Assembly: GCA_027452145.1 (NCBI GenBank)
Contig: DAIDHB010000439.1
Location: 1 to 64,000 of the forward strand
Reading direction: 5' to 3'
DNA length: 64,000 nt
Source: Planctomycetales bacterium
GTDB taxonomy: Bacteria > Planctomycetota > Planctomycetia > Isosphaerales > Isosphaeraceae
Within the stretch, counting starts at the first letter, position 1. Each line of letters begins with the position of its first letter. The translations under genes were made by a program, and so were the position numbers. The notes beneath the pieces are model-generated. The model had not been told where the DNA came from. It worked only from the letters and a program-made list of their open reading frames with translations, and ran no database searches. Of this stretch, positions 1,896 through 52,550 are shown in pieces.

Positions 1896-2006
1896 ATGGT
1901 CACGATGGTTGCACCCTTCCGGATCGGACCGGCCGATCATGGCCGCATGATGACCCTCGAACAGTTTCGGGAGGCGGAAGAGACGGATAGGTACTCTCAT
2001 GAGCGG
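1896..2006 (+). pseudogene. Relic of the N-terminus of a Uma2-type (DUF820) putative nuclease
   Basis: From ATG 1896 the frame reads VAPFRIGPADHGRMMTLEQF, then REAEETDRYSHE. This resembles the N-terminal region of planctomycete Uma2 proteins (typically GPADHGRRMTLEEF...AEE...YRYELARG). The similarity ends about where the kinase gene begins in another frame (ATG 1999). The rest of a Uma2 domain is absent, so I read it as a remnant left by a deletion or rearrangement. The match rests on recall of the family pattern, not on a search. Confidence 0.45.
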
Positions 2007-5000
2007 CGATGCGAGCAAGCGATCAGAAGAGCGCCTGGCCGACGCGCTGGCCGCGTACGACGACGCGCTGGCTGTCGGCCGGGAGACGCCGGCGGAGGCG
2101 CTCGAGGAAGCGGTGGACCCTACGCTCCGGTCCGAGTGGAACCGGCTTGCCGCCTTCCTGACGCTCGTCGAGCGGGCGTGGCCCCGCAATGGCGCCGCGA
2201 CGGATCACTCGACCGAGTCGATTCCTTCCGGGATCGCACCCAGGACCGATCCCAACTGGAGCGAGGCGGGCGACCGGTTCGGCCGGTTCCGGATCCTGCG
2301 GGTGTTGGGCCAGGGCGGCTTCGGGGTCGTGTTCCTCGCCTGGGATCCGTCGCTGCGCCGGCAGGTCGCGCTCAAGGTGCCCCAGCCCGAGGCCATGATC
2401 GCGCCCGAGGCCCGCAAGCGGTTCTTCCGCGAAGCCCGCGCCGCCGCGGGACTTGACCATCCCGGCATCGTGCCGATTTATGAGGCCGACAGCGTCGGCA
2501 CGATCTCCTACATCGCCTCGGCCTACATCCCCGGCCCCACTCTGGCGGAGTGGTTGAGTCGACAGCCCGCTCCCGTCCCGCCGCGCGACGCGGCCGCGCT
2601 CGTCGCCGCCCTGGCGCGCGCCGTGCAGCACGCCCATGACCGCGGCGTCCTGCACCGCGACCTCAAGCCGAGCAACATCCTGCTCCAGCCGCCGGCCGAC
2701 GACGACCCGGCCTGCGATTTTGGTGTGCACCTGGGTGAGTTCCAACCGCGGATCACGGATTTCAGCCTGGCCTGGCAGGCCGATGGCGATGGGCCGAAGA
2801 CCCTCAGTGGGGTGCCGCTCGGTACTCCCCCGTACATGGCCCCGGAGCAGGCCGCGGGTCGCCTCCGGGCGATCGGCCCGCCGACCGATGTCTATGGCCT
2901 GGGCTCGATCCTCTACGAGCTGCTGGTCGGGCACCCGGCGTTCGAGGCCGACAGCCAGGTCGAGACGCTGAGGATGGTGATCCAGGACGAGCCGACCCCG
3001 CCGCGGCGGATGCGCCGGGACCTGCCCGTCGCCTTGGATGCGATCGCCCTCAAGTGCCTGGCCAAGGACTCGGCCCGCCGCTATCCGACCGCCTGCGAGC
3101 TGGCCGAAGACCTCGAACGGTTCCTCCGCGGCGAACCGGCCCGGGCACGCCCACCCAGCTGGCGCGAGCAGGTCGCCCGCCGGGCCCGGCGTCACCCGGC
3201 CGCGCTCTCCGTCCTGGCCATCGCCGCCCTCTGTACCGGTACACTCGTGATCGGCTGGCGGTGGTACGCGCAGCAGCTCGAAGCGAGCCGGCAAACGGCC
3301 CACCAACGGGACGCGGACGCGCGGCGGAGTGAAGACGCGCGGCGACGTACCCGCTACGTCGCCGACCTGCGCCAGGCCGCGGAGCATCTCCGCTCCGATC
3401 AAACGACGCTCGCCCACAACCTCCTCGCCAGGTATCGATCCCGGCCCGGCGAGGACGACCTGCGCGAGTTCTCCTGGTATCACCTCTGGCGGCGGTGCCA
3501 CCTCGAGCGACGGACGCTTCCGGGACCCCGCGACGTCGTTTATGCCGTGGAGTTCTCCCCCGACGGTGAGCTGCTCGCCGGCGCCTGCAGGGACGGCAGC
3601 GTGCTGATCTGGGAAACGGTCGGGTGGAAGGTGGTCCGCACCATCGCGGCATCGCCGAAGGAGGTCAACTTTGCCACGTTCTCCCCGGACGGCAAGGCCA
3701 TCGCGACCGTTGACGACGAGGGGAAGCTCAAATTGTGGGAAATGGTCTCGGGCCGGCTGCTTCGCGAGATCCCGGCCCACCAGGGCGACGCGGTGATCGC
3801 CCGGTTCACCCACGACGGCAAGACCATCATCACGGGCGGTCGTGACGATCGACTCATCAAGCTCTGGGATCGCGCGTCGGGGCACGAGCAGACGGCATTC
3901 CGCGTCGGAGATGGCAAGCTGGAGAGCGCGGCGCTGTCGCCGGGCGGCTCGGTCCTGGCGTGTGTGGGGGCTCGCGCCATCAGTCTGCACCGAGCCATCG
4001 ATGGGAAGCGTTTCGGCTCGATTCCCGCCGAGGACGAGGTCCAGTGCGTGGTGTTCTCGCACGATGGCAAGAGTCTCGCCACCGCCCACGAAAGCGATCG
4101 AATCGTCCGCCTGTGGGATGTGTCCACCCGCCGGCTGATTCGTGAGTTCGCCGGGCATAACGGCGGCGTATACTCGGTGGTATTCTCAGCCGATGATCGG
4201 ACGATCGTTTCCGGCAGCAGAGATTACACGCTACGGCGCTGGGACGTGGCGACGGGCGCCCAGCTCGGGGTCCTATCCGGGCATACCGAGCGTGTCTGGG
4301 CCGTCGCAATCGCGCCAGACGGCCGCACAGTCGTCTCCGCCGGCGCGGATGGCACCGTCAGGCTGTGGGATCTCGAGCCGGCCGCCGCGCGCGTCCGGCT
4401 GCCGGTCGGGGAGACGTCTGCCATCGCGTTCTCGGCTGATGGACGGGTCCTGAAGACCTTTGAACTCGGGCCGAGGCGTGCCGTCACAAGCTGGGACGTT
4501 CGTTCGGGGCGTGTGCTGGACCGCGTGCCCGTTGTCCTGCCAAAAAACGTGCGCATGTCAGCATTCTCGAATGATTGTCGACTATTGGCGGTGATGGACC
4601 ACGAGTCGGATCTTACCGTCCACGACCTGGCCACGGGTCGGAATCAACGATTCCACGATCCGGCGCCCAGGTTATGCTTCGATCTGGAGTTCTCGCCTGA
4701 CAACCGATTCCTCATGGTTTCCCGCGGGCGTCGCATCTGGGACTTATCGAACCAATGCCTGGTTCGACTCCCGTGGGCAGAGGGGTGCGAAAAGTGCTTC
4801 AGCCCGAGCGGCGAGATCGTTACACTCGTTACCGATCAGGCCGCCCACCTCTGGAATCCCGACACCGGGCAGGAACGAGTGCTACGCATCAAGACTTCCG
4901 GGCCCAGCGTGGTGAGGTTTTCCCCCGACGGGCGCCTGGTCGTGATAACGAGCACGAGTCAACATATAGTAATTTGTACAGTGGCACCCCTTCAGCCCCG

Positions 5001-5313
5001 GACCACTGTTCCCGAACAGGCTCACGATCCTCGGACCCTTGCCTTCTCTCCCGATGGCAAGACCCTCGCCTTCGGTCTCGATGTTCCCTCGGCCAGGTTC
5101 TGCGACACCGCGACGGGTGAGGTATTGCTGACTGTCGATGGATTATCCGACGTGCCCCACATGCTCCGCTTCTCGCCGGATGGCCGGGCCGTCGCATTGC
5201 TCACCTGCGAAAGTCCCGGTCGCCTCTCTGAGGTGACTCTGCTGCGAGCAACCCAGGATGACCGCGATTCGGCCGTACCCGATCCCAATTGGCACGACCC
5301 GCCGCACCCTTGA
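1999..5313 (+). CDS. Receptor-like Ser/Thr protein kinase with C-terminal WD40 propellers
   Basis: 1104 residues. A cytoplasmic Hanks-type kinase domain spans about residues 94-375: glycine loop GQGGFGV (104-110), VALK lysine K126, HRD at 219-221 with DLKPSN, and APE at 281-283. The metal-binding DFG motif reads DFS (254-256), which is unusual. One membrane helix follows at about 400-420. Residues about 510-1090 then hold roughly 14 WD40-like units (FSPDG...LWD), enough for two seven-bladed propellers, probably outside the cytoplasm as a sensor. The start ATG has no strong ribosome-binding site and sits where the Uma2 relic ends. It follows the ECF sigma gene by 210 bases and is likely its signalling partner. 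DNA around 4560-5000 is visibly less GC-rich than the kinase half. Confidence 0.9.
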   Translation: MSGDASKRSEERLADALAAYDDALAVGRETPAEALEEAVDPTLRSEWNRLAAFLTLVERAWPRNGAATDHSTESIPSGIAPRTDPNWSEAGDRFGRFRILRVLGQGGFGVVFLAWDPSLRRQVALKVPQPEAMIAPEARKRFFREARAAAGLDHPGIVPIYEADSVGTISYIASAYIPGPTLAEWLSRQPAPVPPRDAAALVAALARAVQHAHDRGVLHRDLKPSNILLQPPADDDPACDFGVHLGEFQPRITDFSLAWQADGDGPKTLSGVPLGTPPYMAPEQAAGRLRAIGPPTDVYGLGSILYELLVGHPAFEADSQVETLRMVIQDEPTPPRRMRRDLPVALDAIALKCLAKDSARRYPTACELAEDLERFLRGEPARARPPSWREQVARRARRHPAALSVLAIAALCTGTLVIGWRWYAQQLEASRQTAHQRDADARRSEDARRRTRYVADLRQAAEHLRSDQTTLAHNLLARYRSRPGEDDLREFSWYHLWRRCHLERRTLPGPRDVVYAVEFSPDGELLAGACRDGSVLIWETVGWKVVRTIAASPKEVNFATFSPDGKAIATVDDEGKLKLWEMVSGRLLREIPAHQGDAVIARFTHDGKTIITGGRDDRLIKLWDRASGHEQTAFRVGDGKLESAALSPGGSVLACVGARAISLHRAIDGKRFGSIPAEDEVQCVVFSHDGKSLATAHESDRIVRLWDVSTRRLIREFAGHNGGVYSVVFSADDRTIVSGSRDYTLRRWDVATGAQLGVLSGHTERVWAVAIAPDGRTVVSAGADGTVRLWDLEPAAARVRLPVGETSAIAFSADGRVLKTFELGPRRAVTSWDVRSGRVLDRVPVVLPKNVRMSAFSNDCRLLAVMDHESDLTVHDLATGRNQRFHDPAPRLCFDLEFSPDNRFLMVSRGRRIWDLSNQCLVRLPWAEGCEKCFSPSGEIVTLVTDQAAHLWNPDTGQERVLRIKTSGPSVVRFSPDGRLVVITSTSQHIVICTVAPLQPRTTVPEQAHDPRTLAFSPDGKTLAFGLDVPSARFCDTATGEVLLTVDGLSDVPHMLRFSPDGRAVALLTCESPGRLSEVTLLRATQDDRDSAVPDPNWHDPPHP

Positions 5314-11601: not shown

Positions 11602-12948
11602 TCAATCCAGCGTCCTGATCGAGACGTTGCGGAACTCGACCGGATCATTGTGACCGGCAAAGCCGAAATAACCCGACGTCCGGTCCTTGCCGGGGTGGGG
11701 CGAGTTCGCCATGAACTCCTTCACGTCGGCGAGGTCGGTGTCGAGGATCACGGTGCCGTTGAGCTCGACCTTGATCTTCGACCCTTTCACCGTGACTTCC
11801 TGGAAGTTCCACTCGCCGGCCGGGCGCTGATAGCCCCGCTTCGCGGGGACCATGCCATAGGCCGAGCCGTGCGCCTGTCGCGGGTCGATCTTGCCGTGGA
11901 CCTTCTCATAATTGTCGTCGAGGACCTGAAGCTCGGTCATGCCCTCATACGCCGTGTCGCCGCGGCCGGGGTAGCGGATCGCCAGGCCGTTGTTGCCGCC
12001 CGGCGGCAGGCGGAACTCCAGCCGCGCGGAGAAGTCCTTGAACTCCTCGTTGAAGTAGATCACGCCGCCCTTGTGCGGCTTGCAGCGGATATTGCCGTCG
12101 ACGACCTCGTAATTCTCGATCGGGCCGGCCCACTGCGCGAGGTTGGCGCCATTGAAGATCGAACGGAAGCCCTTCGCGCCGTGCTCGGCGAGCAGCTTGT
12201 TGGCCTCCTCGGCCGGGATCTCGCGGACGGCGATGTTCCGCCAGTGGATCTCGTGGTCGTGCGTCTGGAGCTGGATCGGGCCGCGGGCCACGAGTGGCAG
12301 CTTGCGATCCCAGTAGTTCTCCCACCGCGCGAAGTCGACGACCAGCTTGTCATTCAGATACACCGTTGTCCGCTCGCCGACCTGGAGGATCCGCAGCGAG
12401 TTCCACTCGCCGATCGGCTTATCCGCCACGACCAGCGGGTCCTTCCCGGGCGCGCCGGGCGAGTTGTTCCACAGGCCGCCCGAGCCCTTGTGCGCGTCGT
12501 TGCGGCGATAGGTCGGCTCGGTGTAGTCCCAGATCTGGACCTGCGGCGTGCCGCGGAGATAAACCCCGCTATCCCCCTTCGGCCCAATCTTGAAGTCGAC
12601 CTTCAGCTCGACGTCGCCGTAATCCTTGTCGGTGGTCAGGTACGCGCCCTGGCCGTCGTTGATGATCACGCCGTTCTCGACCCGCCAGTGCTTCTTCAGG
12701 TCCTCGGCGCCCTTCTCCAGGACCCTGGCCTTCTCGTCGGAGCTCATCGCCGTGAACTTGCGCGGGTCCATCGTGGCGACGCCGTGCCAGCCGGTGAAGT
12801 CCTTGCCGTTGAACAGGGTCACGAAGCCGCCATCCGAGGCACCGCCGGGCGCCGTGGCCGTCGCCGCCGTCGGCGAGTCCGGCCCGGCGCCGATCGCCGC
12901 GACCGCGGCCAGTCCCGCGATCACGATGCTGCAAAACCGCCGTTGCAT
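11602..12948 (-). CDS. Secreted protein with two DUF1080 (3-keto-disaccharide hydrolase) domains
   Basis: 448 residues from ATG 12948; the longer frame upstream has no ribosome-binding site, whereas GAGAG precedes this ATG. Residues about 1-25 are a signal peptide. Domain 1 begins with FVTLFNGKDFTGWHG and domain 2 with FRSIFNGANLAQW, the characteristic opening of DUF1080 (concanavalin-like fold). Both contain the paired segments for edge strands and the GNNGLAIRYPGRGD / DSGVYLRGTPQVQIWD patterns. Some DUF1080 proteins hydrolyse 3-keto-glycosides; others appear to be binding modules, so the activity here is presumed. It follows the giant M56 gene on the same strand by 143 bases. Confidence 0.88.
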   Translation of the reverse strand: MQRRFCSIVIAGLAAVAAIGAGPDSPTAATATAPGGASDGGFVTLFNGKDFTGWHGVATMDPRKFTAMSSDEKARVLEKGAEDLKKHWRVENGVIINDGQGAYLTTDKDYGDVELKVDFKIGPKGDSGVYLRGTPQVQIWDYTEPTYRRNDAHKGSGGLWNNSPGAPGKDPLVVADKPIGEWNSLRILQVGERTTVYLNDKLVVDFARWENYWDRKLPLVARGPIQLQTHDHEIHWRNIAVREIPAEEANKLLAEHGAKGFRSIFNGANLAQWAGPIENYEVVDGNIRCKPHKGGVIYFNEEFKDFSARLEFRLPPGGNNGLAIRYPGRGDTAYEGMTELQVLDDNYEKVHGKIDPRQAHGSAYGMVPAKRGYQRPAGEWNFQEVTVKGSKIKVELNGTVILDTDLADVKEFMANSPHPGKDRTSGYFGFAGHNDPVEFRNVSIRTLD

Positions 12949-13091
12949 GGTGTCGTTCTCTCGCATCCAGTGGGGTGGGATGTTCAGGAAGGTACGCCGG
13001 AGGCCCTTCGGGGCGCCTCCGGACAACGCCCCCATCATCGGCGGATCGGGGCGCCAGATCAACTCGCCACTCACTAACCCCTATCCCCTGC

Positions 13092-16000
13092 TCAGTACGC
13101 CGCCAGCCACGCCTGGCCCGACTCCGGCCCGATGGGAGAGCGGATCGCCGGCCGGCCGTCGGCATCCAGGCCCAGGACCTCGGACTCGGTGGCCACCCAG
13201 GCCCGGCCGGTCGTCGGGCTGAACGCCACGGCCGTCGCCGCCGTGATCGGCAAGGGCTCGGGCGCGCGGCCGTCGGGATGGAAGCGGAGCAGCCCGCCGT
13301 GCAGGACCGTCACCCACGCCGTGCCCGCCTTCGGGTCGACGGCGACGCTGAAGACCAGTTTGTCCCCCATCGGCCATGAGTGAAGCACCTTGCCGCCCGG
13401 GTCGACCTGCCAGACGCGGTTGGCGCTGCCGGCCTCGTCAGGATGCGCTCGCTCGACCAGCCAGGCGGTCCCGTCGCGCGGGTCAATCTCGACCGATGCC
13501 ATCTCGAATCCCTCGCACGGCCGGCGGAAGAGCACCCGGCCCTCGCGGGTCAGCCGGATGATGCCGTGCTGCTCATCCCCCGCCAGCCAGAAGCCGTCGC
13601 CGTGGGGGTCGTACACGATGTCGAAGCCCGGCTCGGGAAAACTCGCGACTTCCTGGCCGGTCGGTTCGAGGACGACGACCTCGCCGGCCAGCGTGGTCCG
13701 CGACACGGTGCACCACACCCGGCCGGTCTTCGGGTCAACGGCCAGGGCGGCGGCGCTGATCCCGTCGACCTGCCAGAGCCTGCGGCCATGGAAGTCGAGC
13801 GCGACCACGCGATTCGCGATCCGCTCGACCAGGTAGATCCGTCCGCGCTGGCGGTCGATCGCCAGGCTGTGCACGCCGCCGCCGGTCATGCTCGTGTGAA
13901 ACGCGGCGACTCGCTCGACGGCGACGTCTTTCGGATCGCCGCCCCCGGCCGCGCGAAGGATGTGCAGCACATCGCGATGCGGACGATCCTCGCGGAAATC
14001 GGCATCGGCGTCATCGAGCACGAACGCAACCGGCCGATCGCCGGTCGTGGCGGGGCCGGGCTCGGCGAACCGCGTCAGCGGGAACCGCGCCGGACGCGAC
14101 GCCCATCGCGTTGCGCGGAAGAGCGATTCATCCTTCAGGGCCTTCTCGATGGCCGCGCGCAGCTCGGCGCCGCGGAGGTTCTTCGCCAGGATGCGACCGT
14201 CGGGACCGACCAGGAACGTGGCCTGGGAGCTCCTCAGCTTGTAAGCCGCGGAGGCGGGCGACGGGTTCGGGCCCGCGAAGCCCTGCGTCCAGGCGAGGGC
14301 CTGTTTCGTGATGACCTGCTCAGCCGGCTCGGGCGCCCGGTCCCACCAGAGGGTGATCATCCGGAACCGCGGATTGCCGCCGAAGGTTTTGTGAAGCTCG
14401 ATCATGGCGTTCAGGTCGGAGCGCGACTGATGCTCGTACCAGCTCGAGCGGAAGTCGACCAGCACCAGCTTGCCCTGGTTGTCGCTCAGCCTGATCCGAT
14501 CATTGGCGCCCGCTCCCTCGCCGATGCGGCGCACTGTGAAGTCGGGCGCGGGGTCGCCGGCCTTCAGTGTGTCGGTCAACTGGACGTGGATCGCTCCAAG
14601 GTCGAGCGGCTCATTCGACCGGCCGCCGGGAATCGGCGGGACCTCGACCGACCGCTCGACCTGGCCGACCTGCGCGTCGCGATCGCCCGAGCCTGGCGGC
14701 AGCGAGCCGTTGACGCGCAGCCGCATCCGGTACATCCCCGCCGGGACGTCGTCGATGCGGAACGATCCGTCCTTCTCGAGGTTCGCCGCGACGCGATACC
14801 AGCGATCCGGCGCGGTCGCAGCTTGATCGAGCCCGGCATCCAGCGTGACGGGCTCCTGCTTCGTCCAGTCGACCGGGAACTCGGGCGTGCCCTCGATCGC
14901 GAGCCGGCCGACGACCGGCCGGCCCTTGCCGCCGATCTTCACCTCGACCGTCCCGCCGGGCGGGACCTCGACCCGTTCGTTCCAGCCGGGCGTATGCATC
15001 TCGCCTCCGCCGCCCAGGGCGGTGATGACCACGCGACTCACCATGCCCGGCCCCGGGATCACCCGGTCGAGGGTGAACCGCCCGCGGTCGTCGGTGCGGG
15101 TCTCATACCCGTAGCTGAAGACGAACGGACCGACACCGCGCCGGAACCGGTTGGGATGGAACGAGACCTCCTGATTGGCCCCGCTCCGGGCGCCGATACG
15201 TAAGCCTCCCTCGATCCGGCCCCAGGGCTGGAGGACCAGGGTACCGGAGCGAGCGAGCTCGTCGGGCATCGCATCGGCGAACCCGGCGTCGCCCGCGGCG
15301 ATCACCGAGAAGGGCCCCTCGGGCGCCGCGAACGCGAACCGGCCATCCGGCCCGGTCGTCACTCGCGGCATGCCCGCATCGCCGTTGAACCGGCCGTCGT
15401 GCAGCGCGACGTGCTTCCTGGGAGTGGCCAGCGCGACCGCGACCGCCTCGGCCGGCCGGCCGTCGGGCAGCTTCACGATTCCCGAGACCGACCTCGCCGG
15501 TTCGAGGGCGAAGTCGAGCGTCCTGTCGCCCTCATCGGGCCGGAATCCGCGCGAGGCGGCGATCCTGTATCCCGGGGCCTCGATCCGGACATACAGCCGC
15601 TCGCTCGGCTCGTCGAACTCGGTCCGGTACTGGCCGTTCGAGCCCTGAACGAGACTCGCCTCGGACCAGTTGATCTCGGTCGGGGCCTCGCCGACGATCG
15701 GCCGGCCCTGCACGATGCGGAACCCGTCCACCGGCCGCCCGGTCGTCGCATCCGTGACCTTGCCCGTGATGACGAGCCTCGGGTGCAGGACCACCGTCTG
15801 CTCGCGGTCCGTTGCCTGGAGCGACACCTCCCGGCCCGCCATGTAGCCGGGCTTCAGGATGGAGAACAGCACAGCGTCGGCCGGCGCGTCACCCCAGGCG
15901 AAGCGGCCGTCGGCGTCGGTGTGGGTCCGGAACTCGAGCACCGCTCGACCGCGCCAGCTCTCCACCACCACGAGTGCGCCGGCGATCGGACGACCCGCGA

Positions 16001-18050
16001 CATCCACGACCCGGGCCCGCATCGACTTCCCCGGCCCGGCCAGCCGGACCTCGACCGGCGCCATCTTCGCCTCGATCCGCACCTCCCTCATCAAGGGCGC
16101 GAACCCCCGAGCCTGGACCCCGAGGCTCGCGACGCCCGGGTCGCAGTTGTTGATCGTGAACCGGCCATCGGCGTCGGAGGCCGCGGCCGGCCCGCTGCTC
16201 CCCCGGCTATCGTGAGTCAGCACGGCCCGGGCGCCACGGACCGGCCGGCCCTGGGCGTCGATCACAAGCCCCGTCAGTGTCAGACCCCGCTCGAGCACGA
16301 TGACGCTGTCGCTCCCGACCGCCGCGACGGTGTTATAGGCGCGCTGCCGATAGCCCGGCCTGGTCGCACTGACCCAGATGTGGCCCAGGTCCCGCGGCGC
16401 GTGCTCCAGCCGCCAGCGGCCCCGATTGTCCGTCTGAAGCGTTGCCAGGCTGAAGTTGGCGCCCTCGTTCCAGTCGGAGTCGGTCGCCGACGCGGTCAGG
16501 CTAACCTTCGCGCCTGCGATGGCCCGCCCCTCGGCATCCTTCACAACCCCGCCGATCGTGACCCCCCGCTCGAGCCGCAGCACCTTCTCCGCGGGCAGGC
16601 CCTTCGGGTGCCGGTCGCGCGACCAGACGACCAGCACCGGCGCGAATCCCGGCGCGCGGGCGGTGACGTGCAGCCGCTCGACCTTCGCTCCGGCCTTCCA
16701 TTCGATCGCCGCGGTGCCATCCTCGGCGGCCTTCACGGTCGACTTCTGGGCCTCGCCTCCGATAGACAGCAGAACCTCGACCGAGGCGCCGCCGACCGGA
16801 TCGCCGGTCGCTCCCTCGACGGCCCGCAGCACGATCCGCCCGGCCGGCAAGTCGGGATCGTTGGCCTCGGGAGTCGCCTTCGCCCTCGCCCGCGCGGCCT
16901 TCGGATCCTGCGCAGCGCGGGTGATGCCGAACCCGCCGATCAGCACCAGAAGTAATCCCCCCAGCGCCACCGCCGGCAGGATCAAGCGGCGCGACAGCGG
17001 CGCGCCAAACACCTGCCGATTGAGCGCATCGAGGCGGCGCCAGACTTCCGAAGTCCTCGCCATCGCCAGCACCGGCGCGGGCGACGGTGGCGATGAGGCC
17101 GCCGCCACAGCCAGCCGCGCGAGCGTCCGACCGTAGGCGACCACATCGCCGAGGTGATCGGCCGCGATCGCGTCGCTCACCGCGTCGCATGCCGACGCAT
17201 GCGCCGACCGGATCCGCCAGGCCAGCGGGTGGAACCAGAGCACGATCGACGCGAGGTGTGCCGCCAGGTTCCACGCCAGGTCGTGGTTTTTCGCGTGCGC
17301 CAGCTCATGCGCCAGGATCGCCGGCAGGTCGTCGGACGTCGAGCCGTCCGCCCGGCCAGGCAAGAGCAGCACCGGGCGGAACACGCCCGCCAGGCACGGG
17401 CCAGCAACCTCTTGCGAGCATACGACTCGAGGCGTCCGATTGCAGCCCAGCCGGGCCGCGATCGCGCGGCACCGATCGACGATCGCCTGAGGGGCATCAT
17501 TCGCCCGCCTCAGCAGCCGGCCCAGCGCCAGGCTCGACAGCACCAGTCGCCCGGACAGAATGAGCATTCCGGCCAGCCAGAGCGCCGGCAACCACGACGC
17601 CACGCGGCCCACAATCGGCGTCGGCGACGGTGCTCGCGCCGCCGCAGGCTCGATGTCGAGGACCGGTTTGGGCCGGGAGACGACGGTCTCGGCCTCGGCC
17701 TCGGCCTCGACCCGGACGGCCCGCACCGGCATCAGGGCCGGCGGACGGACCGGTTCCGAATGGGCCGTCGGCGCGAGCGAAACGGCCGGCTCGACCGACA
17801 CCTCACGCACGGGAGGCGCCACCGGCAGGCTGACGATCGGCGCGCGGGCCGAGAGCGCCGCCACCACGATCATCCCGGCGATCGTCCCCCGCCAGAGCAG
17901 GACCCGCCACCGCGGATTCCGCCGGGCCAGGAGCGCGTGCGCCAGCCACGACGACGCCAGGAGCACCGTGCACCGGGCGACCAGCCCGGCCGGGCCGCCG
18001 TGGTCGGCCAGGATCGCCAGCAGGTTCGAGCCGATCGTCGCGGCATTCAC
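13092..18050 (-). CDS. Giant M56/BlaR1-type membrane metallopeptidase fused to regulatory repeats, thioredoxin fold and beta-propeller
   Basis: 1652 residues from GTG 18050, whose GTGA overlaps the stop of the BlaI-type gene by 4 bases. Membrane helices lie at about 19-42, 52-72, 153-177 and 355-377. The M56 zinc motif HELAH is at 248-252 and is followed by KNHDLAWN. The downstream segment that often reads E-x-A-C-D in this family reads HASACD (284-289), so one metal ligand may be missing. Residues about 398-1150 form many carboxypeptidase-regulatory-like beta domains (GxVxDAxGRPVxGARV). Residues about 1160-1320 are an AhpC/thioredoxin-like domain (DPAPDF...VLVDFRSSWYEH) that lacks CxxC. Residues about 1390-1652 form an NHL-like propeller. 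In BlaR1 proteins M56 activity cleaves the repressor after extracellular sensing; by analogy this is the sensor/protease for the upstream repressor. Confidence 0.85.
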   Translation of the reverse strand: MNAATIGSNLLAILADHGGPAGLVARCTVLLASSWLAHALLARRNPRWRVLLWRGTIAGMIVVAALSARAPIVSLPVAPPVREVSVEPAVSLAPTAHSEPVRPPALMPVRAVRVEAEAEAETVVSRPKPVLDIEPAAARAPSPTPIVGRVASWLPALWLAGMLILSGRLVLSSLALGRLLRRANDAPQAIVDRCRAIAARLGCNRTPRVVCSQEVAGPCLAGVFRPVLLLPGRADGSTSDDLPAILAHELAHAKNHDLAWNLAAHLASIVLWFHPLAWRIRSAHASACDAVSDAIAADHLGDVVAYGRTLARLAVAAASSPPSPAPVLAMARTSEVWRRLDALNRQVFGAPLSRRLILPAVALGGLLLVLIGGFGITRAAQDPKAARARAKATPEANDPDLPAGRIVLRAVEGATGDPVGGASVEVLLSIGGEAQKSTVKAAEDGTAAIEWKAGAKVERLHVTARAPGFAPVLVVWSRDRHPKGLPAEKVLRLERGVTIGGVVKDAEGRAIAGAKVSLTASATDSDWNEGANFSLATLQTDNRGRWRLEHAPRDLGHIWVSATRPGYRQRAYNTVAAVGSDSVIVLERGLTLTGLVIDAQGRPVRGARAVLTHDSRGSSGPAAASDADGRFTINNCDPGVASLGVQARGFAPLMREVRIEAKMAPVEVRLAGPGKSMRARVVDVAGRPIAGALVVVESWRGRAVLEFRTHTDADGRFAWGDAPADAVLFSILKPGYMAGREVSLQATDREQTVVLHPRLVITGKVTDATTGRPVDGFRIVQGRPIVGEAPTEINWSEASLVQGSNGQYRTEFDEPSERLYVRIEAPGYRIAASRGFRPDEGDRTLDFALEPARSVSGIVKLPDGRPAEAVAVALATPRKHVALHDGRFNGDAGMPRVTTGPDGRFAFAAPEGPFSVIAAGDAGFADAMPDELARSGTLVLQPWGRIEGGLRIGARSGANQEVSFHPNRFRRGVGPFVFSYGYETRTDDRGRFTLDRVIPGPGMVSRVVITALGGGGEMHTPGWNERVEVPPGGTVEVKIGGKGRPVVGRLAIEGTPEFPVDWTKQEPVTLDAGLDQAATAPDRWYRVAANLEKDGSFRIDDVPAGMYRMRLRVNGSLPPGSGDRDAQVGQVERSVEVPPIPGGRSNEPLDLGAIHVQLTDTLKAGDPAPDFTVRRIGEGAGANDRIRLSDNQGKLVLVDFRSSWYEHQSRSDLNAMIELHKTFGGNPRFRMITLWWDRAPEPAEQVITKQALAWTQGFAGPNPSPASAAYKLRSSQATFLVGPDGRILAKNLRGAELRAAIEKALKDESLFRATRWASRPARFPLTRFAEPGPATTGDRPVAFVLDDADADFREDRPHRDVLHILRAAGGGDPKDVAVERVAAFHTSMTGGGVHSLAIDRQRGRIYLVERIANRVVALDFHGRRLWQVDGISAAALAVDPKTGRVWCTVSRTTLAGEVVVLEPTGQEVASFPEPGFDIVYDPHGDGFWLAGDEQHGIIRLTREGRVLFRRPCEGFEMASVEIDPRDGTAWLVERAHPDEAGSANRVWQVDPGGKVLHSWPMGDKLVFSVAVDPKAGTAWVTVLHGGLLRFHPDGRAPEPLPITAATAVAFSPTTGRAWVATESEVLGLDADGRPAIRSPIGPESGQAWLAAY

Positions 18051-18472
18051 TTGCGCCTCCTCCTCGTGCTCGTACTCGTGGGCGACGCTTCCGATCCCGG
18101 TCCCATTGTCGACGCCGGCTCCTTCCCCTCGGCCAGCCGCTTGAGCTCGAGCAGCTCCTGCTCGCTGAGCTTCTCCGATTTGATCAGGTTCATCACCAGG
18201 TCGCGCACCGAGCCGCCGCAATACGTGTCGACCAGCTCGCCCAGCATGGTGCGGAACGCCGACCGCGGCCGGGTGACGGCCTTGTAGTAGTACGCCTTGC
18301 CCACCAGCCGGCGAGTGACGTGCCCCTTGTCCACCAGGGTCGTTAGATAGGACCGCAGCGCGGGGTTCTTGATCGGCTCGGGGAACCGCTCCTGAAGCTC
18401 CACCGGCTTCAGCTCGCCGTGCTCCCACAGGAGCCGCATCACCTTCATTTCCCCCGGCGTGAACTTCGGCAT
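18047..18472 (-). CDS. BlaI/MecI-type winged-helix transcriptional repressor
   Basis: 141 residues from ATG 18472, with GGGGAG upstream. The winged-helix domain is typical of the Penicillinase_R family: FTPGEMKVMRLLWEHGELKP, then VELQERFP and a recognition segment NPALRSYLTTLVDKGHVTR, and a wing reading VGKAYYYKAV. The C-terminal half contains the dimerisation helix with SEKLSEQELLELKRL. The last residues are an Arg/Lys-rich tail. Such repressors bind palindromic operators as dimers and are inactivated by proteolysis triggered by the M56 partner, which is encoded next and translationally coupled. Two 22-bp palindromes at its own promoter indicate autoregulation. Confidence 0.92.
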   Translation of the reverse strand: MPKFTPGEMKVMRLLWEHGELKPVELQERFPEPIKNPALRSYLTTLVDKGHVTRRLVGKAYYYKAVTRPRSAFRTMLGELVDTYCGGSVRDLVMNLIKSEKLSEQELLELKRLAEGKEPASTMGPGSEASPTSTSTRRRRK

Positions 18473-18503: not shown

Positions 18504-18525
18504 ATGTGCAGATCGTACTGCACAT
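18504..18525. promoter_or_regulatory. Operator 1 for the BlaI-type repressor
   Basis: ATGTGCAG and CTGCACAT flank a 6-base centre (ATCGTA). The centre, read on the minus strand, is the TACGAT -10 box of the repressor promoter, so a bound dimer would block transcription. BlaI-family operators are dyads of this size. Confidence 0.75.
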
Positions 18526-18540
18526 CGAGGCGGTCGTCAA
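18512..18540 (-). promoter_or_regulatory. Promoter of the BlaI-M56 operon
   Basis: On the minus strand TTGACG (18540-18535) and TACGAT (18517-18512) are spaced by exactly 17 bases, 40 bases upstream of the repressor start. The -10 box coincides with the centre of operator 1. Confidence 0.6.
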
Positions 18541-18544
18541 GCGG

Positions 18545-18566
18545 ACGTGCAGGTTGTTCTGCACGT
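18545..18566. promoter_or_regulatory. Operator 2 for the BlaI-type repressor
   Basis: ACGTGCAG and CTGCACGT flank the 6-base centre GTTGTT, the same architecture as operator 1, with starts 41 bases apart (about four helical turns). It lies directly upstream of the -35 box and 15 bases after the stop of the secreted protein gene. The shared half-site is CGTGCAG/TGTGCAG. Confidence 0.72.
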
Positions 18567-20851: not shown

Positions 20852-23800
20852 TCAGCGCATCCTCATGCCAAACCGATAACTCCCCGGCTCGATCGAGAAC
20901 GGCAGGCCCGGGCCGCGCTCGCCGGGCAGTGCAATCGGGCCGCTGATGCCGCCGGACTGGACGATCGGGCGGCCTCGCTCGGCCTGGGGCAGCGGACGAC
21001 CGCCCTCGGTGATGCTGTCGAGGTCCGTGGTCGGCAGGAACACGATCGCCTTCACGTTGGCCGGGATCGTGAGCGACAGCTCGAGCCGGTCGCCGTCCCG
21101 CTTCCACTCCGTGGCGATCGCGCCGAACGGGCTACGGTACGACGTCCTCGCCCAGGTCAACCGCGTGTCGATCCGGGGCGCGAGGATCAGCGTCCGTTTC
21201 GGGGCGTCCAGGTTGATCCCGCCGATCGTTCGGGCCATCCAGCCGTAGACGGCGCCAAAGGAGTAATGGGCGAACGAGTTCATGCCCGGGTCCTGGAAAC
21301 CCTTCTCCGGCGTCCAGCCGTCCCAGCGCTCCCAGATGCTCGTCGCCCCCTGCTTGATCGAGAAGCCCCACGAGGGGAACGTGTCGTTGTGCAGCAGCCG
21401 GAACGCCACGTCGTCGCGGCCGATCAGCGAGAGCGCCTGCATCAGGGACTTCGTGCCGACGAAGCCGGTCGACAGGTGATAGCCGCGCTTCGCGATGTCC
21501 GCGACGAGGTATTTCGCCGCCCGGTCGAAGTCCTCCGTCGACGGATTCGGATCGAGCAGCCCGAAGGCGAGCGCCATCACGTAGACCGCCTGTGTGTCTC
21601 CCTTGATCCGGCCGTCAGGACCGACGTAGGCTCGCCGGAACGCTTCCCGAACGCGGCGGCGCAGGTCCCAGTACCGCGCGGAGTCGTTGTCCTTCCCCAG
21701 CGCGTTGGCGGCGCGATACATGAGGTCGACGCTATGGGCGAAATACGCCTCGTAGATCACGTCCTTCGGCGTGTCGGCACCGATACTCAGCCAGTCGCCG
21801 AAGCAGTGGAACTGCGCGGGCGGCAGCAGGTCGGGCGTGCTTCGCTTGCGGCAGAACTCGACGAACTTGACCATCGACGGATACTGCCGCTCGAGCACCC
21901 GACGATCGCCATAGACCTCGTAAATCGTCCACGGGCAAATCACGCCCGCATCCGCCCAGGCGGGGCCGCCGTCGTCGCCGGCGACCTTCACCGGCGCGAC
22001 CATCGGGAACTGGCCGTCGGCGCGCTGGCCATCCGTGAGGTCGACCAGCCACTTGTTGAAGAACGCCTGCACGTCGCAGATCCGCGAGGCCGTCTCGATG
22101 TAGACCTGCGCGTCGCCCGTCCAGCCGAGGCGCTCGTCGCGCTGGGGGCAGTCGGTGGGGATGTCGATGAAATTCGCCCGCTGCGTCCAGTAGATGTTGC
22201 TGAAGAGCTGGTTGAGCATCGGGTCCGAGCAGGCGAACGAGCCCACGACGGGCGTGTCGCTCGAAACGGCGATGCCGGTGATCGTGTCCGCGGTCGGCGG
22301 CCCGGCCAGGCCAGCCACCTCGACGTACTGGAACCCGTGGAACGTGAACCGCGGCTGCCAGTCGACCGGGCTATCATCGGCGCAGGTGTAGCGGTCGGTC
22401 ACGCGGGCCTCGCGCAGGTTCGTCGTGTAGATCGTGCCGTCCGGGTTGAGCCGCTCGGCGAACCGCAGGGTGATCGTCCGGCCCGGTGCTCCCGACGTCC
22501 GCAATCGGACCACGCCGGCGAAGTTCTGGCCCATGTCGAGGACAAAGGTCCCGGGCTTCGGCTGGGCGATGGATTTTGGCTTCAGCTCGGCGAAGGCGAC
22601 GACCGGCGGGCCGGGGTGCCACTGGACCACCGGGTTCACCTCGGCACCGCGATCGACGGGCGACCACGCCGAGTCATCCAGGCCGGGGCTGTCCCAGCCG
22701 GGGATCGCCTTGCGGGCGTCGACGGTCTCGCCCATCAGGAAGTCGGCCTCGACGATCGGGCCGGTCGTTGCCTTCCAGCCGGGGCTGGTGACGACGTCCT
22801 GCGTTTTTCCATCGGCCAGCTCGAGGTGCAGGATCGCCCGCAGCCGGGGCTTCTTGCCGTAGTGGTCGCGTTTCTTGCCGAAGCCGACGTAGCCGCTGTA
22901 CCAGCCGTCGGCGACGATCGCGGCCAGGGCGTTGTCGCCGGTGCGGACCTGCGAGGTCACGTCGTAGGCGCGGTAATAGACGCGCTTCGAGTAATCGGTC
23001 CAGCCGGGGTTGAACCGATCGTCGCTGACGCGGCGGCCGTTGACGTGGACGTCGAAGATCCCGAGTCCCGTGGCGTAGAGCGTCGCGCGCTTGATCGGCT
23101 GATCGACATGAAACCCGGTGCGCAGGTAGGTCGGCGGCGGCAGGATGAGCTGCGCATAACGGAGCCGGCCCCAGGGCGCCATGCCGTACTCGCCCAGTAC
23201 CTCGGCGGCCGGCCAGTCCTTCGTATCGAGCGGGCGGTTGTGCCAGTTGGCGCCCGGGCTCTCCAGCGTCTTCCACGTGCCGTCGGTGACGAACGTCGTG
23301 GTCGCGCCGTCGGCCGTATTCACCACCAGGCGCGCCAGCAGGCCCGCCGGGCTCGGCGAGGTGTTCTGAACCTCGACGCGGATCGTGTTGTCGCCGGGCT
23401 TGAGGTGCCCGGCCACGTCGGCCGAGCGGGGGTGATCCCAGCCGCCCGAGCCGGGCCCGCCGTCGATGACGAGCTGGCCGTTGATCGTGAACCGGAAGAA
23501 GTCGTCGGCCGTCGCGATCAGCTCGGCCTTCTCGACCTTCGCCTGGGGCAGGTGCAGGGCCGCCACGAACAGCCGATGCGCCGCCGGCTTGTTGGGGCCT
23601 TTATCGCCGGCATGCCAGATCCATTTCGCGCCGTCCAGGGGCGCCTCGGGCAGCTCGACCTGGCGCGAGCGGTCCGAGCCGATCCACTCGGCCGCGCTCC
23701 AGGCGGAGGGATCGACGATGCCCATCGACCAGAACGCCGGTGCGCTCCAGGCGGAGGGCTTGCCGTCCTTGTCCCAGACGCGGACCTTCCAGTAGCAGGG

Positions 23801-24148
23801 CTGATGCGGCTCCAGCGGCTTGCCGGCGTACACGATCGCCGAGGTCTCGGCGCTCGTGACTCGGCCGCTGTCCCACAGATCGCCCTGGTCGCGGTCGAGT
23901 ATGGCCCGGCCGCCCGCGACGAGGACCTGGTAGGCCGTCTGTTTCTGCCCCCGCGCCGGGGACTCGACGATCCAGCTCAGCCGGGGGGCGCGCACGTCGA
24001 TCCCGCGCGGATTCACGAGGTACTCGCACCGCAGATAGCCGGGCGTCAGGCCGACGTCGGGGCGGGTTTCCGCGAGTGCGGGCGCCGGCGCCCAGGCCAG
24101 GCCGATCAGCAGGACGGCGGCGGTCGCCGAGTGATGGGGGAGCATCAT
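20852..24148 (-). CDS. Secreted alpha-L-rhamnosidase, glycoside hydrolase family 78
   Basis: 1098 residues with signal peptide (1-27, ending PALA). GGAGG lies 8 bases before the tandem ATG codons. Domain order fits bacterial GH78: an Ig-like N-terminal domain (PRLSWIVESPARGQKQTAYQ), an inserted carbohydrate-binding-like module around residues 185-290 (ATADDFFRFTINGQLVIDGG), Bac_rhamnosid_N, then the (alpha/alpha)6 catalytic domain with the conserved acid-rich motif DCPQRDERLGWTGDAQ and later WGFSIKQGATSIWERWDGWT. It would release L-rhamnose from extracellular glycans by inverting hydrolysis. It lies last in the rhamnose cluster, 129 bases after the importer. Confidence 0.93.
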   Translation of the reverse strand: MMLPHHSATAAVLLIGLAWAPAPALAETRPDVGLTPGYLRCEYLVNPRGIDVRAPRLSWIVESPARGQKQTAYQVLVAGGRAILDRDQGDLWDSGRVTSAETSAIVYAGKPLEPHQPCYWKVRVWDKDGKPSAWSAPAFWSMGIVDPSAWSAAEWIGSDRSRQVELPEAPLDGAKWIWHAGDKGPNKPAAHRLFVAALHLPQAKVEKAELIATADDFFRFTINGQLVIDGGPGSGGWDHPRSADVAGHLKPGDNTIRVEVQNTSPSPAGLLARLVVNTADGATTTFVTDGTWKTLESPGANWHNRPLDTKDWPAAEVLGEYGMAPWGRLRYAQLILPPPTYLRTGFHVDQPIKRATLYATGLGIFDVHVNGRRVSDDRFNPGWTDYSKRVYYRAYDVTSQVRTGDNALAAIVADGWYSGYVGFGKKRDHYGKKPRLRAILHLELADGKTQDVVTSPGWKATTGPIVEADFLMGETVDARKAIPGWDSPGLDDSAWSPVDRGAEVNPVVQWHPGPPVVAFAELKPKSIAQPKPGTFVLDMGQNFAGVVRLRTSGAPGRTITLRFAERLNPDGTIYTTNLREARVTDRYTCADDSPVDWQPRFTFHGFQYVEVAGLAGPPTADTITGIAVSSDTPVVGSFACSDPMLNQLFSNIYWTQRANFIDIPTDCPQRDERLGWTGDAQVYIETASRICDVQAFFNKWLVDLTDGQRADGQFPMVAPVKVAGDDGGPAWADAGVICPWTIYEVYGDRRVLERQYPSMVKFVEFCRKRSTPDLLPPAQFHCFGDWLSIGADTPKDVIYEAYFAHSVDLMYRAANALGKDNDSARYWDLRRRVREAFRRAYVGPDGRIKGDTQAVYVMALAFGLLDPNPSTEDFDRAAKYLVADIAKRGYHLSTGFVGTKSLMQALSLIGRDDVAFRLLHNDTFPSWGFSIKQGATSIWERWDGWTPEKGFQDPGMNSFAHYSFGAVYGWMARTIGGINLDAPKRTLILAPRIDTRLTWARTSYRSPFGAIATEWKRDGDRLELSLTIPANVKAIVFLPTTDLDSITEGGRPLPQAERGRPIVQSGGISGPIALPGERGPGLPFSIEPGSYRFGMRMR

Positions 24149-24277: not shown

Positions 24278-26452
24278 TCAGAAGTCGAACTGGCCGATAT
24301 TCTCTTTGGTAAACAGGTAAGGCTGACCGAGCAGGATGTTGTCGCCCTGGATGGTGATGGACTTCAGCCGCCCGGCCTCGAGGGTCTTGTCGCCCGGCTT
24401 GAGCCGGCCGTCGGCGAGCGCCTGCGCGGCCTGCACGGTCAGGTAACCGAGGTCCATCGTGTTCCACAGGACGACGCAGTCGGTGATCCCCTCGTGGACA
24501 TAACGCTTGTTGTCATTCGGCAGGCCCAGGCCGACCACCTTGACGTCGGTGCGGCCGGACTGCTTGACGGCCTCGGCCGCGCCCGGGACGGCGGGCGAGC
24601 AGATGGCCATGATCAATTTCACGTTCGGGTTGGCGCTCATGATCGTGTTGGCCTCGTCGAACGCTTTTTTCTGGAGGTCATCGCACGGGCGGAGCGCGGC
24701 CATCTTGATCTGCGGATACTTCTCCTGGCGGCGGGCCTCAATCCACTTCTGCCACTCGATCATGTTCGACGCGGTGAGCGACGCCGTGATGATGGCGAAC
24801 TCGCCCTTGCCGCCGAGCACCCGCGCGGCGTTGTCCATCAAGGTGCGGCCGATCCCCTCGGGCGTCGCCTGGTTGACGAAGAAGTCGCGGGCGTCGGGCT
24901 CGGCGTCGGCGTCGAACGTGAGCACCTTGATCCCGCGCTCGCGGGCCTTGCGCAGCACCGACGAGATCCCCTGGCGGTTCTCGACGGCCACGGCGATCAC
25001 ATCAACCCCCCGGGTGATCCAGGTATCGATGATCTCATTCTGCCGCGCGGGGTCGGGATCGGTCGGTCCGTCCCAGATCAGCCGCACGCCCAGCTCCTTC
25101 GCGGCCTCCTCGGCGCCCTTGCGGCAGGCGATGAAGTAGGCGTTCCCCTTGCTCTTGGGCATCATCGCCAGCGTGATCGGGCGATGGGAGCCTCTCGTCG
25201 CCTCGGCGGACGCGGCAGCGCGATCGCCGGAGGATGAAGGAATGGCCGAGCTCTCGTGCCCCGCCGAGCGATCCTGGACGATCGAGCGAACCATCAGATA
25301 ATTGCCGGCGGTGACGATCAGCGCGCCGGCCAGGATGGCGAGGCAGATGACGGCGACTTGCGAGTTCTTCACGTGCAGATCCTCCGGGAGTGGTCCGTCG
25401 AGGGCCGCGGCCGGCGTCGGCGCGGCGGCGTGATGATGGCGGCCTCGGCCCCGGGCGCGGGCGTGTCCGCGGCGATCGAGGCCGATCGCGAGCAGGAGCA
25501 ACAGGCCCGTCAGCACGCCGGCCAGCTCGCCGGGGAGCGCCGCCAGGAGCATCCCGTTGCGCAGGACGGCGATGGCGAACAGGCCCAGGATCGTGCCGGG
25601 CACGCTGCCCCGGCCGCCGAAGATCGAGGTGCCGCCGAGGACGACCGCGGTGATCGCCGAGAGCTCGTAGCCGGTGCCGGCGTCGGCCTTGGCCTGTCCC
25701 AGATGGGCGACGTACACGATCGCCGCCAGGCTCGACACGAGGCCCGAGAGGACATAGACACTCGTCACCAGCCGGTCGACGGGCAGACCGGCGTAGCGCG
25801 CGCCCTCGGCCGAGTAGCCGATGGCCGAGATGGCTCGCCCCGCGGTGGAGCGGTGCAGCAGCACCCAGAAGCCCACCGCGACGATCAGGAACAGCGGCAC
25901 CTGCGCGGGGATCCCGCCGACCGCGTAGCCCTGGCCCAGGAACAGGAACGACGAGGGGAAATTCGTGTAATTCTCGACTCCGCCCGTCAGGCCCTCGGCC
26001 AGTCCGCGGAACAGCGAGAACGAGCCGAGCGTCACGATCAGCGGCGGGATGCGGCCGAATGTGATCAGCAGGCCGTTCAGGCTGCCCGCCAGCGCGCCCA
26101 GGCCGAGCGTCAGCGCGGCCGCGACGGGGATCGGCAGCCCGGCGTCGCGCCAGAGCATGCCGAAGACGACCGCCGAGAGGCCCATCAGCGAGCCGACCGA
26201 CAGGTCGATGCCGCCCGTCGTGATCACCGGCGTGAGCGCGACGGCCAGCAGGCCGAGCTCGACGCTCAGCCGCAGGACCTCGAAGGCGTTGGCCACGCTC
26301 AGGAAGTTCGTGCCGATCAGCGCGAAGACGGCGACCTCCAGCAGGAGGATCCCCGCCAGGATCGCGCGAGCCGGCTCGATCGACCGGGCACCGGGCTCGC
26401 CGGTTACGGTGGACTGCGAGACAGCGGTCACGTTGTCCTGCGTCGTGTTCAT
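24278..26452 (-). CDS. L-rhamnose ABC importer: permease (RhaQ-like) fused to sugar-binding protein (RhaS-like)
   Basis: A single open frame of 724 residues. Residues 1-330 form an RbsC-type permease with about eight to ten membrane helices and signatures GIDLSVGSLMGLS and LGGTSIFGGRGS. A His/Arg/Ala-rich linker (GRGRHHHAAAPTPAAALDGP) follows. At residue 361 a new hydrophobic helix (VAVICLAILAGALIVTAG) precedes a periplasmic-binding domain of the RbsB/RhaS type (PITLAMMPKSKGNAYFIACR..., NEIIDTWITRGVDVIAV). A GTG at 25372 with GGAGG 7 bases upstream could also start a free binding protein from the same frame. The start ATG overlaps the stop of the ATPase gene (ATGA). The helix allows the binding domain to sit outside the membrane. 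Substrate inferred from the neighbouring rhamnose genes. Confidence 0.85.
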   Translation of the reverse strand: MNTTQDNVTAVSQSTVTGEPGARSIEPARAILAGILLLEVAVFALIGTNFLSVANAFEVLRLSVELGLLAVALTPVITTGGIDLSVGSLMGLSAVVFGMLWRDAGLPIPVAAALTLGLGALAGSLNGLLITFGRIPPLIVTLGSFSLFRGLAEGLTGGVENYTNFPSSFLFLGQGYAVGGIPAQVPLFLIVAVGFWVLLHRSTAGRAISAIGYSAEGARYAGLPVDRLVTSVYVLSGLVSSLAAIVYVAHLGQAKADAGTGYELSAITAVVLGGTSIFGGRGSVPGTILGLFAIAVLRNGMLLAALPGELAGVLTGLLLLLAIGLDRRGHARARGRGRHHHAAAPTPAAALDGPLPEDLHVKNSQVAVICLAILAGALIVTAGNYLMVRSIVQDRSAGHESSAIPSSSGDRAAASAEATRGSHRPITLAMMPKSKGNAYFIACRKGAEEAAKELGVRLIWDGPTDPDPARQNEIIDTWITRGVDVIAVAVENRQGISSVLRKARERGIKVLTFDADAEPDARDFFVNQATPEGIGRTLMDNAARVLGGKGEFAIITASLTASNMIEWQKWIEARRQEKYPQIKMAALRPCDDLQKKAFDEANTIMSANPNVKLIMAICSPAVPGAAEAVKQSGRTDVKVVGLGLPNDNKRYVHEGITDCVVLWNTMDLGYLTVQAAQALADGRLKPGDKTLEAGRLKSITIQGDNILLGQPYLFTKENIGQFDF

Positions 26453-29100: not shown

Positions 29101-29121
29101 GTTGTTCTTCTGTTCCTCGTT

Positions 29122-29323
29122 ATTAGTCATTAGTCATCAGTCATTAGTCATTAGTCATCAGTCATTGGTTCGCTGTCGCGGATTTCAACGGTTCCCTCGA
29201 AATCCTCGGCGCGTAAGCGGAGAGCGGAGAGCAGATGACCGATGGCCAAGCAATGACCAATGACTAATAACTAATGACCAATGACCAATGACAAATGACC
29301 AATAACTAATGACCAATGACAAA
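29122..29323. repeat. Heptad-repeat element A between rhamnose isomerase and importer genes
   Basis: Six consecutive 7-mers (ATTAGTC or ATCAGTC) occupy 29122-29163, then GGTTCGCTGTCGCGGA (29167-29182), about 70 bases of unrelated sequence, and then an opposing array of ATGACCA-type 7-mers from about 29252 up to the stop codon of the isomerase gene. The same core and layout occur at 54045-54241. Confidence 0.9.
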
Positions 29324-42764: not shown

Positions 42765-42831
42765 CCGGTTCTCTCCGGGGGGCGGGTCTTCCTTCCGGGC
42801 GGGCGGGATTGCGGCTCGGCTTGCCCCACCG

Positions 42832-42839
42832 ATTATACT
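42832..42839. promoter_or_regulatory. Overlapping divergent -10 boxes between cytochrome-type and phosphoesterase genes
   Basis: GATTATACTG reads TATACT on the plus strand (52 bases before the phosphoesterase start) and TATAAT on the minus strand (68 bases before the DUF1549 gene start). One site may serve both directions; -35 boxes are unclear. Confidence 0.4.
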
Positions 42840-42890
42840 GCAACGTCGGGTTCCGGGGACAGGCGACCGGGGACGGAGGATCGACCGCGC

Positions 42891-50985: not shown

Positions 50986-51048
50986 AAGTAGGTCGGGCAT
51001 TCTTGCCCGACGCTCTGGCCCCGTCGGGCAAGAATGCCCGACCTACTT
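50986..51048. repeat. AGGTCGGGC hairpin, perfect 27-bp arms
   Basis: Arms 50986-51012 and 51022-51048 are exact reverse complements (AAGTAGGTCGGGCATTCTTG...), with loop CTCTGGCCC. It stands between the convergent 3' ends of the secreted-protein gene and the lactonase gene and could terminate transcription from both sides. Its flank CGCCGGCATGAAAG is shared with the degenerate copy at 47167. Confidence 0.93.
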
Positions 51049-51065
51049 TCATGCCGGCGTCATCA

Positions 51066-52277: not shown

Positions 52278-52550
52278 CGCGCGACTCCGAAGCTCGAAAG
52301 GACCGTTTCCGATTTCCATGCCAGATTGACCGGTGCCGACCATATCACAGCCCATCGCGACGGGCAAGGAATCGGCCGGCCGCGGTCATTCGGGCTCATC
52401 GGGCGCGGGCCGAAACGACCGGTCGGGAAAATGCGGGTCGAGGTCTGCCTCGGACCTCGGACGCGACTCTGCGGTGTCCGGCGACGCGGCTCGTCTGGTA
52501 GAATGATGCTGGAAATCCCGCCCCGCCCGATTCCCTCCGGACGTCGCGTC

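Follow-up and report, generated by a model that had tools for sequence, protein, structure and literature searches.

A planctomycete BlaI-type repressor paired with an M56 protease whose stalk, thioredoxin-fold and propeller tail has relatives on ECF sigma factors

What does a BlaR1-type protease respond to when the sensor that defines BlaR1 has been replaced by an unrelated tail? Beta-lactam sensing is what BlaR1 is known for, and signaling in the phylum Planctomycetes is poorly studied. The question is raised by two overlapping genes in the window, the 64,000-nucleotide stretch of a Planctomycetales genome analyzed here, which encode a BlaI-type repressor and a very long M56 protein. A literature search of incomplete coverage found no paper that joins Planctomycetes, M56 and BlaI. 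All features of this gene pair and of its promoter lie on the minus strand (-).

The frame of the M56 protein is open without a break from position 18428 to 13092. From the GTG start at 18050, which shares bases with the TGA stop of the BlaI gene (GTGA), it encodes 1652 amino acids (13092..18050), of which 1270 form the tail beyond the M56 part. The original prediction placed an M56 protease, CarboxypepD_reg domains, a cysteine-free thioredoxin and a propeller in this single frame, and the Pfam matches, profiles and models described below agree. Third-position GC is 81–93% in each 100-codon block, and comparison with the orthologue of the same genus gives a dN/dS of about 0.3 (0.083/0.258), which points to purifying selection. 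These values together argue that the domains belong to a single protein under selection. Rfam and tRNA scans gave no matches.

A hidden stop, a frameshift or an assembly error that wrongly joined separate genes had been named as what would refute the fusion. The host assembly (10.9 Mb) is indeed split into 556 contigs, and in one orthologue (L107:5076-7691 (+)) M56 and stalk lie in different frames, through sequencing error or a true break. However, the frame in the window is unbroken, codon-position GC is even, dN/dS is low, and the identical fusion occurs in independent assemblies, as far as the contig end in G016 and with the complete architecture in Aquisphaera insulae (79-kb contig). An artefact is therefore barely conceivable, and at the level of sequence the fusion of M56, stalk, thioredoxin and propeller is well established.

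The protease domain resembles that of BlaR1. Residues 130–342 match Peptidase_M56 (PF05569) with an E value of 2e-24, scoring 86.7 bits where the cut-off is 31. Hydropathy and AlphaFold helices predict two transmembrane helices at residues 20–67 (17850..17993); PF05569 and comparison of the model with BlaR1 place a third helix, the gluzincin domain and a fourth helix at residues 145–373 (16932..17618). AlphaFold models cover two parts of the chain, residues 1–480 and 1145–1652. For the first part, mean pLDDT is 82, with the M56 blocks mostly above 92, and the best PDB matches are all BlaR1 (8exr_A: TMt 0.65, rmsd 2.9, 185 columns). As modeled, the domain adopts the BlaR1 fold expected of peptidase family M56. 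It was also predicted that a BlaR1-like M56 gene lies beside a BlaI gene; this is confirmed by the fold match and by PF05569 and PF03965 scores above their cut-offs.

In BlaR1, Glu242 is a zinc ligand, Asp246 is salt-bridged to Arg294', Tyr261 comes close to His201, Ile265 lines the S1' pocket, and Ser283-Phe284 is the autocleavage bond (PMC9834060). The HELAH motif of the window protein (17295..17309) supplies H248, E249 and H252, which are invariant in a 40-member M56 alignment and correspond to BlaR1 H201, E202 and H205 (PMC9834060). The counterparts of E242 and D246 are D289, the predicted third zinc ligand, and D293 (17172..17186), whereas Y261, I265 and R294 correspond to Y306, L310 and R339. 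D293, L310 and R339 are invariant across the 40 sequences. A profile alignment to 8exp/8exs makes A329-M330 in LAMAR (17061..17066) the counterpart of S283-F284, and the LAMA motif is common among the 40 sequences. The other active-site residues that were checked are thus retained.

The original prediction suspected that the third zinc ligand had been lost, based on the letters HASACD. This was a register error, since ACD lies four residues too early and the ligand column holds D289, followed by D293. An ungapped alignment from W(F/P)HPLAW to the next LG sets ..REQACDD.. of canonical paralogues against ..ACDAVSDA.. of the window, so that D289 and D293 stand opposite the Glu and the Asp of the paralogues, respectively. 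Likewise, a profile of the 40 M56 sequences against solved BlaR1 places NEVEAD of BlaR1 on the D289–D293 columns. The protein therefore carries HExxH and, by alignment, a downstream acidic third ligand as in other M56 members, with Asp standing for Glu, and D289 is predicted to bind zinc. Glu occupies this column in 27 sequences and Asp in 13, and a branch supported at 96/85 separates all 13 Asp members from the rest. This pattern reflects one old Glu-to-Asp change that was afterwards conserved, rather than decay.

The tail begins with a predicted extracytoplasmic stalk (residues 391–1158; 14577..16880) of CarboxypepD_reg beta-sandwich repeats (PF13620, E 1.2e-53 over five stretches in Pfam). 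In structure comparison, its first domain gave transthyretin-like and other beta-sandwich matches. Profiles, AlphaFold and Foldseek then identify a thioredoxin-fold domain at residues 1160–1308 (14127..14573). The Pfam match to AhpC-TSA is weak (residues 1165–1287), the solved thiol-disulfide oxidoreductase 3fw2 matches residues 1188–1306 with an E value of 1.7e-9, and Foldseek aligns the AlphaFold thioredoxin part with 3fkf at TMt 0.88. The domain thus resembles ResA/TlpA thiol-disulfide oxidoreductases in fold and sequence profile. However, residues 637 to 1446 contain no cysteine, hence the thioredoxin domain has none and lacks the CxxC active site of the TlpA/ResA proteins, so thiol chemistry is not expected. 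Relatives carry WCGPC or WCAPC.

The chain ends in a predicted beta-propeller of about 7 blades (residues 1340–1652; 13095..14033), recognized from the model, Foldseek and homologues on other M56 proteins; in Pfam, SGL (E 0.03) is below threshold. The AlphaFold model of residues 1145–1652 (mean pLDDT 85) contains about 28 propeller strands and resembles 7-bladed designs, YncE and NHL propellers. In a search of 392 genomes from the phylum, just two more propeller homologues reach E <1e-12; each is an M56 protein that lies next to BlaI and has the canonical Glu. A scan of named genomes added a stand-alone homologue in Limnoglobus roseus with a signal-peptide-like N terminus, a Sedimentisphaerales frame with stalk, degenerate thioredoxin and propeller that ends at a contig end, and one further truncated copy. 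In distant planctomycetes, the propeller is again found on M56 proteins. Those of Phycisphaerae and other planctomycete MAGs (L150/L156, L151/L157) also lie beside BlaI and have a homologous propeller ectodomain, but their propeller follows the last transmembrane helix directly, with no stalk before it, and they have the Glu ligand and other C-terminal parts. A thioredoxin fold followed by an NHL-type propeller is known from plant SOQ1 (7DJK) and human NHLRC2 (6GC1), which at the level of fold are the best Foldseek matches spanning both domains. The overall TM is only 0.27–0.35, so the domain arrangement differs from that of the window protein; neither protein has a protease, stalk or repressor, and sequence profiles gave no NHLRC2 or SOQ1 match.

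The repressor gene (18047..18472, ATG start at 18472) encodes a winged-helix protein of 141 amino acids. It matches PF03965 (Penicillinase_R) with an E value of 9.9e-22 and 77.9 bits against a cut-off of 22.6, which together with a predicted dyad operator identifies it as BlaI-type, whereas the NCBIfam CopY/TcrY model TIGR02698 scores 48.2 bits and does not reach its cut-off of 121.95. The candidate cleavage bond is Asn-Leu within VMNLIK. Phe is almost invariant at P1' of BlaI cleavage sites (PMC9834060), but the residue here is Leu or Ile.

Two perfect 6+6 dyads of the form GTGCAG-N6-CTGCAC precede the repressor gene. The distal dyad, GTGCAG-AACAAC-CTGCAC (18547..18564), is conserved in orthologues, and the proximal dyad, GTGCAG-TACGAT-CTGCAC (18506..18523), has the predicted -10 element TACGAT (18512-18517) as its center. 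The -35 element TTGACG (18535..18540) lies between the dyads at a 17-bp spacing from the -10, and BlaI bound to both would therefore cover the promoter. None of 20000 shuffles of the region contained two perfect dyads with identical arms. Orthologues normally have two such dyads, 41–43 bp apart; in a comparison of 21 sites, nine of ten orthologues have both at the same place, and the tenth (L111) has one recognizable dyad. More distantly, L124 carries the pair in the form GTGCGG-N6-CCGCAN, and L125 and L126 each have a single dyad. The six central bases of the proximal dyad read TAnnnT in the window and nine orthologues, and a TTGNNN or TGGNNN hexamer occurs 17 bp upstream of the -10 in the window and the eight orthologues inspected.

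Within 45 genomes of the family Isosphaeraceae, to which the window belongs, the dyad pair occurs ahead of orthologous blaI genes and in three other places, which is about the chance level given by a reversed control. Since the pair is essentially confined to blaI-m56, the switch looks autoregulated. A wide BlaI regulon was considered and rejected: a single-dyad search of the genome allowing one mismatch gave 73 matches versus 114 in the reversed control, and the dyad pair occurs once in the window's own genome. Consequently, no separate target gene explains the role of the switch, and its output appears to be the operon itself, perhaps together with the gene behind it. This gene (11602-12951, -) encodes a protein of the 3-keto-disaccharide hydrolase type, which was matched in two stretches. 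Between it and the M56 gene, neither a promoter-like nor a terminator-like site was found, so read-through is possible. The gene is not found at this place in the orthologues. An alpha-L-rhamnosidase gene (20852-24148, -) is also nearby, and the neighborhood of the switch is thus carbohydrate-degrading.

To place the locus among its relatives, the same 45 genomes were searched with the M56 core. Eleven, including the host, gave one strong match each, yielding ten orthologues. In all ten the M56 gene overlaps or adjoins a BlaI gene, and no part is better conserved than BlaI (62–92% identical to that of the window); besides BlaI, no conserved neighbor is common between genera. The survey that had been proposed for the same gene order beside BlaI thus returned BlaI and M56 ten times, with the full tail of cysteine-free thioredoxin and propeller shared by the window and A. 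insulae. In L077 the thioredoxin has WCGPC, in L087 it is cysteine-free with no propeller behind it, L106, L108 and L109 have the stalk only, and L110 and L111 have shorter or divergent stalks. Because some orthologues lack the thioredoxin or the propeller, both seem nonessential for the core mechanism.

Homologous tails are also found on proteins that start with sigma-70 regions 2 and 4, that is, on ECF sigma factors. For example, L078 and L092 share a CarboxypepD_reg stalk and thioredoxin homologous to the window tail over 900+ residues (34–38% identity), but their output is a sigma factor, and the thioredoxins of such proteins mostly retain the WCxPC cysteines. Most of these proteins have a transmembrane helix after region 4 and before the stalk, although at the threshold used L078 showed none. 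On a tail tree made without L107, the labels M56 and ECF need three changes, and well-supported branches force at least two. No bootstrap tree separates M56 from ECF by one change, and L078, from the window's own genus, falls within the M56 tails of the window's clade. The tree thus indicates that tails were exchanged at least twice between M56 proteins and ECF sigma factors, which argues for an input module serving different outputs. In A. insulae, an ECF sigma factor with a transmembrane helix and stalk (L075:7689-11156, +) is divergent from blaI-m56, and the two dyads between the genes could control both. The extension had been called unusual; the fusion is real, but the family commonly carries stalk-plus-thioredoxin tails on M56 proteins or ECF sigma factors, and the host genome itself has 16 M56 matches, many in frames of 1000–1900 amino acids.

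Compared with Staphylococcus BlaR1/MecR1-BlaI (PDB 8EXP-8EXT), the window likewise combines a BlaI-type repressor with an adjacent M56 gluzincin, a promoter predicted to be controlled by dyads, similar predicted helices, HExxH and the catalytic set. In contrast to BlaR1/MecR1, it has Asp for Glu as the third ligand, a different operator (GTGCAG-N6-CTGCAC) and no penicillin-binding sensor. As originally proposed, that sensor is replaced: the window protein gave no transpeptidase match and has the 1270-residue tail of CarboxypepD_reg stalk, cysteine-free thioredoxin and propeller in its place. No beta-lactamase or PBP gene was found under the switch. The protein scores 64.1 bits with the NCBIfam model blaR1_generic, below the cut-off of 400. 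It is a member of peptidase family M56 and its partner is a BlaI-type repressor; lacking the sensor and a match to the curated model, it falls outside BlaR1/MecR1 by sequence, yet by analogy it probably works alike.

We consider it reasonably probable that the two genes form a self-contained transmembrane switch, in which the tail would sense an extracytoplasmic cue and gate cleavage of BlaI by the M56 domain. BlaI dimers would bind the two dyads, which flank the -35 element and contain the -10, and hold expression of the operon down. Four helices would anchor the M56 protein in the membrane, placing the zinc site on the cytoplasmic side and the tail outside, where the stalk would hold the thioredoxin–propeller head off the membrane. 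A cue on the tail would open the active site, and cleavage of BlaI at the Asn-Leu bond would derepress the operon. In this scheme, sequence comparison establishes the fusion, the gene overlap, the tail exchange with ECF sigma factors, the conservation of operators and promoter, and a conserved catalytic set that has Asp where the third ligand falls; binding, gating and cleavage are modeled on BlaR1, and the topology and sensing by the tail are predictions. The PBP sensor and the thioredoxin cysteines are both missing, which makes a bound protein or envelope polymer a more likely signal than either a beta-lactam or a change of redox state and supports the earlier expectation of a signal other than a beta-lactam. 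Where relatives have WCxPC, their head could respond to redox state; the window lineage has lost the cysteines and has a propeller, which suggests a shift to partner binding.

Other readings have to be weighed against such a switch. The tail could instead be the output: a surface stalk whose binding head serves adhesion or contact with a matrix, and whose level is governed by its own M56/BlaI part in response to what may be a membrane cue. The dyads control only the blaI-m56 operon, which would make the tail the main product of derepression, and surface proteins often carry CarboxypepD_reg, Ig-like and propeller domains. Nevertheless, exchange of like tails between ECF sigma factors and M56 proteins fits a sensor rather than an adhesin, and canonical M56 proteins next to BlaI carry the propeller as well, so we regard this reading as unlikely. 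Less probable still is an M56 domain that is catalytically dead and serves as a membrane tether or scaffold because Asp cannot stand for the Glu ligand. The third ligand is indeed shortened, in all 13 members of the clade, but HExxH, D293, Y306, L310 and R339 are all present, the LAMAR cleavage-loop motif and the BlaI Asn-Leu/Ile bond are conserved, and an inactive enzyme would be expected to lose such residues over 13 divergent members. Moreover, Asp serves as a zinc ligand in the Asp-zincins (PMC3890501).

It is very improbable that the protease acts on another substrate, such as an ECF or anti-sigma protein, with BlaI merely its transcriptional regulator. The ECF-TM-stalk gene of A. insulae, transcribed divergently from the same operator region, and the absence of the P1' Phe from BlaI would be consistent with this idea, but the constant linkage of BlaI to the M56 gene, the strong conservation of BlaI, and the lack of any other neighbor conserved between genera speak against it. 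If the gated switch is correct, a BlaR1-type protease-repressor core would here be wired to a presumptive sensor unrelated to penicillin, and the conserved operator makes the switch directly testable. The homologous tails on ECF and M56 proteins would clearly exemplify how unrelated signaling classes exchange sensors, and the two-gene switch would illustrate this trading of modules. The broader proposal, that Planctomycetes trade extracytoplasmic tails between ECF sigma factors and M56-BlaI pairs and that one M56 lineage replaced Glu by Asp while remaining active, stands in our judgment evenly balanced.

In the host genome (G000), M56-BlaI switches have greatly expanded in number and differ in their tails. 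Of its 16 M56 matches (L032-L046), 15 are above the cut-off and most lie beside a BlaI-like gene; the frames measure 529 to 1929 amino acids. At L034 (1600-3417 and 3572-7936, -), a second M56-stalk-thioredoxin gene is followed by a separate stalk-thioredoxin gene, both with degenerate thioredoxin domains. Elsewhere, two giant M56 proteins (frames of 1473 and 1445 amino acids) stand in tandem behind one BlaI (L128:2296-11061, +). The window also encodes a WD40 propeller fused to a protein kinase (1999-5313, +), an ABC transporter whose single frame joins two ATPase stretches to a branched-chain-type permease (26449-29130, -), a PSCyt1/PSCyt2/PSD1 protein with a Laminin_G_3 domain (39579-43457, -), a tricorn-type protease (43677-47075, +), and a 1014-amino-acid frame that ends in a DUF1501 domain (51003-54047, +).
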